From Geothrix oryzisoli (lineage in GTDB: Bacteria; Acidobacteriota; Holophagae; Holophagales; Holophagaceae), in assembly GCF_022808865.1 (NCBI RefSeq), contig NZ_JAKZLB010000001.1, positions 62,001-126,000 on the forward strand: DNA of 64,000 nt, written 5' to 3'. The position numbers and the translations under genes are program-made. Under the pieces are notes generated by a model. It made no database searches, was not told the DNA's origin, and saw only the letters and a program-made list of their open reading frames with translations. Shown here in pieces: positions 10,165 to 14,113 of this stretch (position 1 is the stretch's first letter; each line of letters opens with the position of its first letter).

Positions 10165-10209
10165 GCGGCGCCCCGTCCTATCCTTGAGGCTGCCACCGAG
10201 GTGCCCAAC

Positions 10210-10839
10210 ATGCGGTTCGCAGCCTTCCCGCTCGTCCTGATCCTGCTTCCTGTGCAGGCCGCCCCCGGGGAGGCCAGGAAGGCCACGGCCTTCGAGCGGG
10301 CGGTGGTCCAGGAGATGAGCGACGCCCGCGTCCAGCCGAAGGCCTACGCGAAGCACCTGCGCGAGCTGCGGCCATATTTCGAGGGCACGCTCTGGAACCG
10401 GCCAGGGCGCGTGCCGTTGCGGACGGAGGAGGGCGTTGCGGCCCTGGACGAGGCCATCGCCTTCCTGGAATCCACGCGGCCCGTGGGCCCCTTGCGCTTC
10501 AACGAGGGCCTCGCCCTGGCGGCCCGGCTGCATGCGCAGGACATCGGGCCCAGGGGCAGCCTCGAGCACACGGGCTCCGACGGCAGCCGCCTCTCGGGCC
10601 GCCTCAACCGGCTGGGCCGCTGGCAGGGGCTCGTCGCGGAGAACATCAGTACGGGAGAGGAGGACGCCCGCCAGGTGGTGATCCAGCTCCTGATCGACGA
10701 CGGTGTGGCCAGCCGCGGCCACCGGAAGAACCTCTTCAACCCGGACCTCCACCAGGCTGGTGCCGGCGCGGCGCCCCATCGGGAGTACCGCACCGTGACG
10801 GTGATCGATTATGCCGATGGGTTCGTGGCGGGGCGGTAG
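10210..10839 (+). CDS. Secreted CAP (SCP/PR-1)-domain protein
   Basis: A 209-residue protein with signal peptide MRFAAFPLVLILLPVQAAPG, then a CAP domain. Family hallmarks are LRFNEGLALAARLHAQDI, GSLEHTGSDGS, GLVAENIS and HRKNLFNPDL; the His/Glu pairs in these blocks form the usual CAP cavity. Bacterial CAP proteins are extracytoplasmic and mostly of unknown biochemical role. The start is set at ATG 10210 because GAGG is correctly spaced and the signal peptide begins there; a GTG nine bases upstream is the alternative. It ends 10 bp before the next gene on the same strand. Confidence 0.83.
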   Translation: MRFAAFPLVLILLPVQAAPGEARKATAFERAVVQEMSDARVQPKAYAKHLRELRPYFEGTLWNRPGRVPLRTEEGVAALDEAIAFLESTRPVGPLRFNEGLALAARLHAQDIGPRGSLEHTGSDGSRLSGRLNRLGRWQGLVAENISTGEEDARQVVIQLLIDDGVASRGHRKNLFNPDLHQAGAGAAPHREYRTVTVIDYADGFVAGR

Positions 10840-10849
10840 GGCAGGGGAG

Positions 10850-11659
10850 ATGGGCCGGCCCCCGGACGCGCAGGCGCAGGGCGGCCGGTGGCGCGGGCCG
10901 CTTCTGGCCGGGCTCCTGGGCGCTTCGCTGCTGGCGGGGCCTCCCTTCTCCACCGATGATCCGGAGCCGGTGGAGTACCACCACATGGAGCTGTACCTGA
11001 GCTGGCTGGGCCTCCGGACGCCCGGCGGCGCCACGGGCAGCCTGCCCCTGGTGGAGTTCAACGACGGCATCCTGCCCGAAACGCAGTTCCACATCGTGGC
11101 CCCCTTGGCCTACGCCAAGCCCGCGGGTGGGCCCGTGACGCGGGGGTACGGGGATACCGAGATCGGACTCAAGGTCCGGGTCCTGCGCGAAACGGACATG
11201 CGGCCCCAGGTGGGCGTCTTCCCCCTGGTGGAGGTTCCCACGGGAGCGGCTGACCGGGGGCTGGGCGCGGGGCACACCCAGGTGTACCTCCCGATCTGGC
11301 TCCAGAAGAGCTGGGGTTCCTGGACCAGCTACGGCGGGTACGGCTGGTGGCGGAACCCGGGGGACGGCCGGCGCAACTGGCACTACCTCGGGTGGCTGCT
11401 CCAGCGCGATCTGTCGGGCTGGGCCACCGTGGGCGGAGAGGTGTTCCGGCGCTCCCCGGCCACCTTGGGTGGACGGGCCTCCGAGGGGTTCAACCTCGGG
11501 GCCATCTTCAACCTGTCGGAGCGGGACCACCTCCTGGTCAGCGCCGGCCGGAACCTGTCGGGCGACCGGGAGACCCACCTCTACCTCGGCTATCAGGTGA
11601 CCCTCGACCTGGAAGGCGCACGCCTCCGCCCCTCCCAGAGCAGGGGCGGTCAGCCCTGA
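10850..11659 (+). CDS. Predicted outer-membrane beta-barrel protein (MetA-pathway/transporter-like)
   Basis: A 269-residue protein with an N-terminal hydrophobic segment (LLAGLLGASLLAGPPFST) and a body of alternating-hydrophobicity strands rich in Tyr, Trp and Gly (YHHMELYLSW, TSYGGYGWWRN, HLYLGYQVTL). The opening GPPFSTDDPEPVEYHHMELYL and the later GYGDTEIGLKVRVL and GVFPLVEVPTG segments resemble the Phenol_MetA_deg-type barrel family often annotated as putative transporters. Thus it is probably an outer-membrane pore or porin-like protein; the substrate is unknown. It lies directly upstream of the Mla-type transporter genes on the same strand, so an outer-membrane partner role is conceivable. 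The start is uncertain; ATG 10811 is an in-frame alternative that would overlap the previous gene. Confidence 0.62.
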   Translation: MGRPPDAQAQGGRWRGPLLAGLLGASLLAGPPFSTDDPEPVEYHHMELYLSWLGLRTPGGATGSLPLVEFNDGILPETQFHIVAPLAYAKPAGGPVTRGYGDTEIGLKVRVLRETDMRPQVGVFPLVEVPTGAADRGLGAGHTQVYLPIWLQKSWGSWTSYGGYGWWRNPGDGRRNWHYLGWLLQRDLSGWATVGGEVFRRSPATLGGRASEGFNLGAIFNLSERDHLLVSAGRNLSGDRETHLYLGYQVTLDLEGARLRPSQSRGGQP

Positions 11660-11697: not shown

Positions 11698-12486
11698 ATG
11701 ATGGCTTTCCTTGCGCGGCTGGGAGCGCCGGTGCGCGGCTTCCTGGAGTTCCTGGGCGACCAGGCACACCTGGTGTGGCGGACCCTGCGTTCCGGGCTGG
11801 CGCTCCGATCCGGCCAGCTGGCGGTGGTGGGCGGGCAGACGAAGCTCCAGATCCGCTTCACGGGCCTCGACGCCGGGGTGCTCGTGATGGGCACGGCCCT
11901 GCTGCTCGGGGCGGTGACACTCATCCAGGCCTTCAGCCAGCTCTCGGGCCTGGGCGCGGAGAACTACATCGGCACGCTCATGGTGCTCATCATCCTGCGG
12001 GAGCTGGGCCCGCTGCTGACGGCCGTGCTGGTCATCGGCCGCAGCGCCACGGCGATCGCCGCGGAACTGGGGGCCATGCAGCTCAACGGCGAAGTCGACG
12101 CTCTCGCCGTCCACGGGGTGGATCCCTACCGGTATCTGCTGCTGCCCCGCTGGCTGGGGGTGCTGGTGTCGGTCTTCGCCCTGGTGGTGTTCTTCGACGC
12201 CGCGGCCCTGGGCGGCGGCTTCCTGGTGGCCCGCCTGAAGTACGGCGTCACCTGGGGCTTCTTCATGGAATCGGTGCGACAGGCACTGTCAAACCGGGAT
12301 TTCGCGGCGACCCTGCTGAAAGTGGTCTTCATCTCCGGCGCCATCACCTTCCACGCCTGCCACTTCGGGCTCCGCGTCCAGCGCAGCCAGACCGAGATCC
12401 CGCAAGCCGTCACCAGGACCGTGGTATCGGCCCTGGTGGCCGTGTTCGTCATCGACGGCCTCATCGCCGCACTCCTCTACTTCTGA
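11698..12486 (+). CDS. mlaE: MlaE/YrbE-family ABC transporter permease
   Basis: A 262-residue inner-membrane permease of the MCE (Mla) lipid transport system, which moves phospholipids between inner and outer membranes. The diagnostic block LRELGPLLTAVLVIGRSATAIAAELG appears here as RELGPLLTAVLVIGRS followed by AIAAELGAM, and about five membrane helices are visible. It overlaps the ATPase gene by one base (TGATG), and MlaD follows, giving the order E-F-D. The direction of lipid transport cannot be told from sequence. No mlaB or mlaC homologue is seen nearby; these could be absent or elsewhere. Confidence 0.9.
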   Translation: MMAFLARLGAPVRGFLEFLGDQAHLVWRTLRSGLALRSGQLAVVGGQTKLQIRFTGLDAGVLVMGTALLLGAVTLIQAFSQLSGLGAENYIGTLMVLIILRELGPLLTAVLVIGRSATAIAAELGAMQLNGEVDALAVHGVDPYRYLLLPRWLGVLVSVFALVVFFDAAALGGGFLVARLKYGVTWGFFMESVRQALSNRDFAATLLKVVFISGAITFHACHFGLRVQRSQTEIPQAVTRTVVSALVAVFVIDGLIAALLYF

Positions 12487-13151
12487 TGATCCAGGCCCGG
12501 GGCGTCACCTGCGAAGCGCCCGATGGGCGATGCCTGCTGGAGCGGATGGATCTGCAGGTGCCGGAGGGCGGGAACCTCCTGGTGACGGGCCCCAGCGGCT
12601 CCGGGAAGAGCCGCCTGCTGAGGGTGCTTGCGGGGACGGAAAGGCCCCGGAGTGGAGCACTCCGGATTGCGGGCATTGCCGTCTGGCCTGGTGACGGAGC
12701 CCTCCCGCTGGCCGGGCGCGTGCGCCTGGGCTTCGCCTTCGCCGCGGGCGGATTGCTGTCGAACCTCAGCCTGGAGGACAACGTGGCCCTGCCCCTGCGC
12801 TTCCTGGGCCTGGGAAAGCCCGAAGTCGCCCGGCGGACCGCGGACGCCCTGGCGCGGCTCGATCTCGAGGCCGTGGCGGGGCTCCGTCCCCATGCCGTGA
12901 GCGGCGCGGCCCGCAAGCACACGAACCTGGCCCGCGTTCTGGCCCTCGAGCCGCAGCTGGTCCTGCTGGACGATCCCCTGGACGGCCTCGACACTGTGGA
13001 CCGGGCCGTGGCGCTGGAGCTGATCCGGGCCTGGGCCGGGAACTCTGGCCGCACGCTCGTGGTGGCCGCGGAGGACGCCCAGGCCTTTCCCTGGCTGGCG
13101 TCGAACTCCATCCAGCTGGCCCTGGCGGCCACATCTCCGGAGCCAAGATGA
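12486..13151 (+). CDS. MlaF-like ABC ATPase with degenerate catalytic motifs
   Basis: A 221-residue ABC ATPase placed between MlaE and MlaD genes, so the expected energising subunit of the lipid transporter. Walker A is intact (GPSGSGKS). Other motifs deviate: the Q-loop Gln position reads FAAGG, the signature reads VSGAARKH instead of LSGG(Q/M), Walker B ends LLDDP rather than LLDEP, and the H-switch position reads AAED rather than SHD. Known active MlaF proteins keep these residues, so hydrolysis may be slow or unusual (inference). The C-terminus is short. ATGA and TGATG overlaps bind it tightly into the operon. Family assignment by context and fold is good. Confidence 0.82.
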   Translation: MIQARGVTCEAPDGRCLLERMDLQVPEGGNLLVTGPSGSGKSRLLRVLAGTERPRSGALRIAGIAVWPGDGALPLAGRVRLGFAFAAGGLLSNLSLEDNVALPLRFLGLGKPEVARRTADALARLDLEAVAGLRPHAVSGAARKHTNLARVLALEPQLVLLDDPLDGLDTVDRAVALELIRAWAGNSGRTLVVAAEDAQAFPWLASNSIQLALAATSPEPR

Positions 13152-14113
13152 ACTTCGAGAAGCAGGATGCCCGCCTCGGGCTCTTCGTCATCCTGGCCCT
13201 GGCCCTCTTTGCCGGCGTGCTGGCCTACAAGAACGCCCGTGCCGTGACGGAGAAATCGTATCCGCTGGTGGTCCGTCTGGATCAGATGGAAGGACTGGTG
13301 CCCGGTACCGACGTGCAGCTGAAGGGCTATCGGGTGGGCGCCGTGGAGCGGGTGGACATGCGCCAGGAAGGCTCGGACTACGACTTCCTGGCCACCCTGG
13401 CCGTGCGCGCGGACATCCGGCTGTGGCGAGGCACCCGCGCGGTGGTGGCGCCCAAGGGGGTGGGCAGCGTGATGCTCGACCTGCGCCTGCCCCCGCCCGG
13501 GGAACGCCTGGTGCTGCTGGCGCCAGGCGAGCAGATCCCAGGGGAGGAGGGCGTATCCCTGGGCGGTGTGCTGGAGCGTGCCGACCGCCTGCTGGCGAAC
13601 CTGAATGCCTCTCTCGACACCGTGCGTGAGCGCCTCCGGCAGAAGGGGCTGGGGGACCTGCTGGAGCACCCCTCCGTGGCCCAGGCCCTGCGCTCCCTGG
13701 ATGCCACCCTGCGCGAGTTCCAGGCCCTGGCCCGGGAGGGGCGGGGCCTGGCCTCCCATGCGGACCGCAGCATGGGGGAGGCCGACAAGGCCCTGGAGGA
13801 CCTGGAGCGGAGCCTGGCCGTGACCCGGGGACTCCTGGAGAAGCGGGCCCCGGAGCTGGACCAGATCCTGATGAGCCTGGCCTCGGCCCTCCAGCAGTCG
13901 GACGCGCTGCTGACGCGGTTCCGGGCGGAGGACCAGCCCGAGCTGGAGGCCAGCCTCAAGGCGCTGCGGCGGTCCCTGGATTCCGCGGAGGAACTGCTGC
14001 AACTGCTGAAACAGAAGCCCAGCCGGGTCATCTGGGGCACCCCTGGTCAAGCTGAGCGGGAGAAGGCCCGGAAGGCACTGGAGGCGGCCAAGGCTGTACC
14101 GCCACCGAAGTAG
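13148..14113 (+). CDS. MlaD/MCE-domain substrate-binding protein
   Basis: A 321-residue membrane-anchored protein: a short cytoplasmic tail, one N-terminal helix (LGLFVILALALFAGVLAY), then an MCE domain (about 35-120) with PLVVRLDQMEGLVPGTDVQLKGYRVGAV, a hallmark of the family. The rest is long, charged and largely helical (about 140-300), predicted coiled coil, able to build a periplasmic needle or bridge. With MlaE and the ATPase it forms a phospholipid trafficking complex. It overlaps the ATPase gene by ATGA. The single MCE domain matches MlaD rather than PqiB/YebT. The coiled-coil length suggests a tunnel toward the outer membrane (inference). Confidence 0.87.
   Translation: MNFEKQDARLGLFVILALALFAGVLAYKNARAVTEKSYPLVVRLDQMEGLVPGTDVQLKGYRVGAVERVDMRQEGSDYDFLATLAVRADIRLWRGTRAVVAPKGVGSVMLDLRLPPPGERLVLLAPGEQIPGEEGVSLGGVLERADRLLANLNASLDTVRERLRQKGLGDLLEHPSVAQALRSLDATLREFQALAREGRGLASHADRSMGEADKALEDLERSLAVTRGLLEKRAPELDQILMSLASALQQSDALLTRFRAEDQPELEASLKALRRSLDSAEELLQLLKQKPSRVIWGTPGQAEREKARKALEAAKAVPPPK

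Follow-up and report, generated by a model that had tools for sequence, protein, structure and literature searches.

Results

A second MlaE-type operon in Geothrix oryzisoli

The window, as we refer to the whole 64,000-nucleotide stretch of Geothrix oryzisoli DNA analysed here, carries an operon of three overlapping genes on the forward strand. The first of these, E' (11698-12486), encodes the second MlaE-type permease of the genome, with a score of 202.4 bits against PF02405 (cut-off 22.5). The last, D' (13148-14113), encodes an MlaD-type MCE-domain protein of 321 residues with a long C-terminal part, scoring 39.7 bits against PF02470 (cut-off 25.1). Between them lies F' (12486-13151), whose 221-residue translation is free of internal stops and resembles MlaF without its C-terminal extension; we regard it as a probable pseudo-NBD. 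The stop codon of E' overlaps the start of F' in TGATG (12484-12488), and the stop codon of F' overlaps the start of D' in ATGA (13148-13151). F' is thus translationally coupled to both flanking genes, and it is as intact between MlaE and MlaD as an earlier note on this DNA had described it.

The genome (3.23 Mb, seven contigs) holds one further MlaE, which adjoins a normal MlaF with the motifs FQ, LSGGMK, FDEP and THD, and two MCE proteins in total. MlaC (PF05494) found no match in this genome, despite its two MlaEFD-type operons. There is no third close MlaF in the genome, the next best match to the canonical one being 38% identical, no second NBD gene in the E'F'D' operon and no orphan close MlaF elsewhere in the genome. 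Two tandem ABC-like stretches at G000:C1:995424-996985 contain in-frame stops (one TGA in one, one TGA and one TAG in the other) and are possibly a decayed ABC gene pair, judging from their sequence.

Upstream of the operon, a CAP-domain protein is encoded on the same strand (10201-10839). Usually preceded by cysK, this gene stands directly upstream of E'F'D' in most Geothrix loci (L047-L083); such common neighbourhood does not imply membership of the system, and we consider the protein a possible partner. Some Geothrix loci only, including the window (10811-11659), encode a 282-residue protein between the CAP gene and E', for which Pfam and NCBIfam gave no match.

F' has an ABC fold and altered catalytic motifs

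An alignment to the canonical MlaF of this genome gave the motif columns of F'. Walker A is intact (GPSGSGKS, residues 35-42, 12588-12611, forward strand as for all F' positions given here). At the Q-loop position, Ala86 (FAFAAGG, 12741-12743) replaces Gln; the signature LSGGMx has become VSGAAR (residues 138-143, 12897-12914); in Walker B (LLDDP, residues 160-164, 12963-12977), the catalytic Glu is replaced by Asp163; and at the H-switch, His has given way to Glu196 (VAAED, 13071-13073), a Glu found in 42 of 42 Geothrix copies. This alignment bears out what the earlier note had read from the letters, an intact Walker A beside four altered motifs, and F', in which Q-loop Gln, SGG, Glu and His are each substituted, is not a catalytically complete MlaF ATPase.

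F' nevertheless matches the ABC NBD family PF00005 with 69.5 bits (cut-off 25). Against the NCBIfam MlaF model it reaches 82.2 bits at a cut-off of 441, so that the protein is aptly described as standing in the MlaF position, not as MlaF; its NCBIfam matches are many and generic to ABC proteins, none of them above cut-off. The AlphaFold model of F' has a pLDDT of 92.8, and its structural matches reach Z scores of up to 26.9 (VIA), with MlaF (6xgz) at 24.8 over 212 residues and an rmsd of 2.4. MlaF is not the top match, and many NBD families score alike, indicating that fold alone does not single out MlaF. Past canonical position 229, the median number of residues is 0 in F' and 20 in 116 other MlaE-adjacent ATPases of the phylum, counted on sequences trimmed to the length of their reference.

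The loss of motifs is shared across the clade

Of the 77 Holophagaceae genomes, 56 proved to have this permease in a class-wide search with E', 42 of them among the 47 Geothrix genomes and 14 among the 30 others. All 56 also carry F', at 42 Geothrix loci and at nine plus five loci of other Holophagaceae. Contig ends split F' in G034 and both E' and F' in G029. The five Geothrix genomes without F', all of them fragmented drafts, lack E' as well.

None of the 56 F' orthologues retains the Gln, a complete SGG or the His (seven are gapped at the His position), and the Glu is kept in eight; all four elements are lost together in 48. Walker A Lys is kept in 39 of the 55 copies with data and lost in 16; it is present in 37 of 41 Geothrix copies and in two of 14 from outside the genus, where Walker A reads, for example, TSFPHESS, VTSGGDAT or LGSAAASL. 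Four Geothrix copies have Arg in place of this Lys; Walker A in three of these is GAGGTGRG, GAVGTGRG and GADGMGRG. Elsewhere in the protein, all 42 Geothrix copies keep the Walker B Asp, 37 of the 42 keep the D-loop Asp and six have retained the catalytic Glu. One orthologue comparison covered 43 of 44 orthologues, leaving out the partial L045.

How far F' can diverge is illustrated by the copy of genome G051 (L180 825-1493, reverse strand), which lacks Walker A and has no Pfam match at E-values up to 10. Its model (pLDDT 92.2) is still that of an ABC NBD, and MlaF (6xbd) is in its Foldseek list with an E-value of 3.7e-15, so an NBD fold is predicted even here. Since such a protein escapes Pfam, the annotation of MCE operons can miss an NBD subunit, and genes of this kind may go by the name 'hypothetical'.

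When we searched 396 genomes of the phylum with E', 34 had a close relative (at least 44% identity), only two of which, G140 and G229, lie outside the class. In both, F' has lost signature, Glu and His, and a Gln occupies the Q-loop position or one adjacent to it; Walker A is kept in G140 and lost in G229. An MlaE tree of 66 rows unites E' in one clade with support 100/100, with G140 and G229 inside. The stem of this clade is long, and the tree program warns of long branches, so that the tree does not settle its placement among other MlaE proteins. The second MlaE copies L255-L263, found at class level, had suggested themselves by identity as possible intact ancestors; they do not group with E'.

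Taken as a chance event, a sequencing error or a pseudogene, the residue loss is ruled out, because Gln, SGG and His are missing from all 42 Geothrix orthologues examined, and the orthologues are intact. A recent local event is rejected too, as the E'F' clade is represented in several genera and in two genomes from other classes.

Other MlaE-adjacent ATPases keep their motifs

Among the 116 other MlaE-adjacent ATPases of the phylum, Walker A Lys, Q-loop Gln and SGG are each present in all 116, His in 114 and Glu in 101; 99 are fully intact and the remaining 17 have one change each. These controls are mostly the best-scoring MlaE matches, supplemented by MlaE copies from further searches, so that divergent MlaE loci are under-sampled; they exclude L154 (cut), L171, L201, L202 and L271 (no ATPase read) and nine loci fetched later. 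Reading by eye showed normal ATPase motifs at L275-L281, seven of the MlaE loci that come next in closeness to E'. We therefore reject the idea that the altered residues are the norm of the phylum. Likewise, the objection foreseen in the earlier note, that they might be usual among active ATPases of this clade, does not apply, given that the canonical MlaF of the same genomes has FQ, LSGGM, FDEP and THD.

Single changes occur among the controls in their own right. In 14 of the 116 (families f10 and f65; L148, L149, L200, L208, L209, L214, L216, L220, L221, L223, L232, L235, L249 and L250), the Walker B Glu is replaced by Ser (YDSP) and no other motif is altered; a single MlaE match was seen in 12 of the 14 genomes, while G151 and G289 have more. 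Walker B of L229 reads YDAP, and the H-switch His is replaced by Gln in L226 (TQD) and by Asn in L241 (TND), each in an otherwise normal MlaF.

The predicted permease-docking surface of F' is conserved

The most conserved part of F' is the putative MlaE-docking segment GGLLSNLSLEDNVALPLRFLG (residues 88-108, 12747-12809). In E. coli, the coupling helix of MlaE is reported to touch MlaF at R52, L96, Y108, E112 and R157, with E127 and Q128 as contacts on the MlaE side (PMC7784689). A phmmer alignment places the MlaF residues at F' positions 46, 90, 102, a gap and 150. Leu90 is found in 56 of 56 orthologues, Leu102 in 55 of 56, and a Lys or Arg at residue 46 in 51 of 55; Arg150 (12933-12935), the counterpart of R157, is invariant (56 of 56). 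Averaged over docking columns, conservation is 0.992 in F' versus 0.805 in the controls; these columns were picked after viewing the alignment, unlike the contact positions taken from the paper.

On the permease side, the coupling-helix region of E' is MQLNGEVDALAVHGVDP (residues 127-143, 12076-12126), in which the canonical Glu-Gln has become Gly-Glu. The Gly is found in 39 of 40 and the Glu in 40 of 40 Geothrix permeases, and in seven and nine, respectively, of nine others. The loop after TM4 is altered as well; we place it between TM4 and TM5 by inference from the topology given in PMC7790496. Together, the kept contact positions of F' and the changed coupling helix of E' indicate that the dock has been kept and re-tuned, and the engine has not.

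F' evolves fast under purifying selection

Across the 15 pairs of six Geothrix genomes that have both systems, identity is 88.5% for the canonical E and 89.9% for the canonical F; in the second system it is 86.8% for E', 75.0% for D' and 60.5% for F', which amounts to a roughly threefold divergence of F' over its permease. We estimated dN/dS for 774 of 780 pairs from 40 loci. In the 19 closest pairs among those listed (F' dS up to 0.30), F' gives 0.13-0.47, E' 0.04-0.17 and D' 0.09-0.25; the canonical F, in 45 pairs, gives 0.05-0.18. All are simple Nei-Gojobori estimates on GC-rich genes. Judged by these values, F' is relaxed yet under purifying selection and is the least constrained of the three proteins, in support of the earlier proposal that the gene is selected.

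Discussion

Based on these results, we consider it likely, with a probability of about two in three, that F' is a pseudo-NBD acting as a scaffold of an MCE lipid transporter, without productive ATP hydrolysis. In E. coli, K47A or E170Q in MlaF is reported to abolish complementation on its own (PMC7367683). The E170Q protein is nonetheless described as keeping about 20% of its ATPase activity, so activity can survive the loss of a single motif (PMC7784689). In F', three or four catalytic elements are lost within one chain. An ABC site is built from two chains, one contributing Walker A, Walker B and the His and the other contributing the signature, and pairing F' with a normal MlaF would thus give no complete site either; both considerations favour a scaffold. 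Besides the residual activity of E170Q and the ATP-binding residues and Glu196 kept in Geothrix, what counts against a pseudo-NBD are the six Geothrix copies that keep the Glu, and the Gln in or next to the Q-loop position in G140 and G229.

The main rival is a switch, or a very slow ATPase, in which Geothrix F' would bind Mg-ATP through Walker A and Asp162, dimerise and shift the conformation of E', binding being fully lost only in the other genera. With Walker A Lys in 37 of 41 Geothrix copies, Walker B Asp in all 42 and the D-loop Asp in most, persisting Mg-ATP binding is conceivable and may matter in this genus. The six retained Glu residues point the same way, as does Glu196, whose invariance suggests selection for some function close to the site. 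However, all 56 orthologues lack the signature needed to close the ATP sandwich, along with Gln and His, and even Geothrix has four copies with Arg for the Walker A Lys; we thus regard a switch as rather unlikely. The earlier note had offered weak hydrolysis as one of three options, and this remains conceivable for Geothrix, where Walker A and Walker B Asp persist, and is hardly tenable for relatives with a Walker A such as LGSAAASL.

Its second option, pairing with another ATPase, fares less well. The genome does encode a canonical MlaF at another site, which could supply the ATPase in a heterodimer with F' on E', and heterodimers with one degenerate site are described as common among ABC exporters (PMC7756269). 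Yet every defect of F' lies in the same chain, which would leave both composite sites faulty, the coupling-helix residues of E' are unlike the canonical ones, no extra close MlaF was found in the genome, and F' lacks the C-terminal extension reported to aid MlaF dimerisation in E. coli (PMC7367683), all of which makes such a complex improbable. Least credible of all is that F' is decaying and kept merely through its operon position and translational coupling. It does evolve faster than E' and D', is the least constrained of the three and has lost motifs repeatedly, but the listed orthologues contain no stops or frameshifts, dN/dS is below 1 in all 19 closest pairs, the docking segment is conserved residue for residue, and among the 56 E'-bearing Holophagaceae genomes E' was never found without F'.

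The remaining option, that the transporter works passively, fits best, because relatives have lost Walker A too and the conserved surface is the permease dock and not the nucleotide site. As a scaffold, F' would keep its ABC fold and dock on E' at its coupling helix, thereby keeping the E' dimer, and so also the MCE ring of D', in shape, productive hydrolysis having been abandoned. That would make E'F'D' a second MCE conduit for lipids alongside the normal MlaEFD, and probably a passive or otherwise driven one, with lipid passing down its gradient via E' and the D' tunnel or moved by a drive other than ATP. Passive flow through the D' tunnel would be the simplest drive, since MlaEFD systems without MlaC have been proposed to bridge the envelope (PMC10665443).

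PqiABC and Let systems are MCE transporters without a recognisable ATPase, in which the membrane part is PqiA or LetA, not MlaE, and which have no NBD-fold subunit. E'F'D' would share with them MCE transport without a working ATPase, and differs in retaining an MlaE-type permease and an NBD-fold subunit. In having such a permease, an NBD and an MCE protein in one operon, it resembles MlaFEDB of E. coli and the minimal MlaEFD described for Veillonella parvula (PMC10665443), and its genome lacks an MlaC match, as in MlaEFD-only systems. It is set apart from both by the missing ATPase motifs and MlaF C-terminal extension, by its changed coupling helix and by the normal MlaEFD at its side. Degenerate-site ABC exporters such as TM287/288, TmrAB, MRP1 and TAP have likewise lost a Walker B Glu in a folded, conserved NBD, although one site is reported to remain active in them (PMC7756269). 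In E'F'D', by contrast, the operon encodes a single NBD, and this one is devoid of Walker B Glu, His, Gln and signature all at once; in relatives, Walker A has gone as well. Judged by titles and the beginnings of abstracts, we found no description in the open-licence literature of a pseudo-NBD in an Mla or MCE system, nor of Mla in Geothrix. Nor did that literature yield an account of such a system with a sole NBD stripped of its motifs; degenerate sites themselves are already known from heterodimeric exporters.

Both the energy source of MCE transporters and the direction of their lipid transport are disputed. That E' is kept at normal stringency while F' erodes amounts to a natural experiment separating the NBD as a dock from the NBD as a motor, and the pairing of a powered with a probably unpowered system in one culturable genus makes direct comparison feasible. 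It is an even call whether this clade of MlaE-type systems in the Acidobacteriota represents a motor-less ABC transporter, whose ATPase has turned into a pure docking subunit and whose permease runs without ATP. If so, E'F'D' would mark an intermediate stage in the evolution of MCE systems free of an ATPase, maintained beside a normal, powered copy in the same cell.
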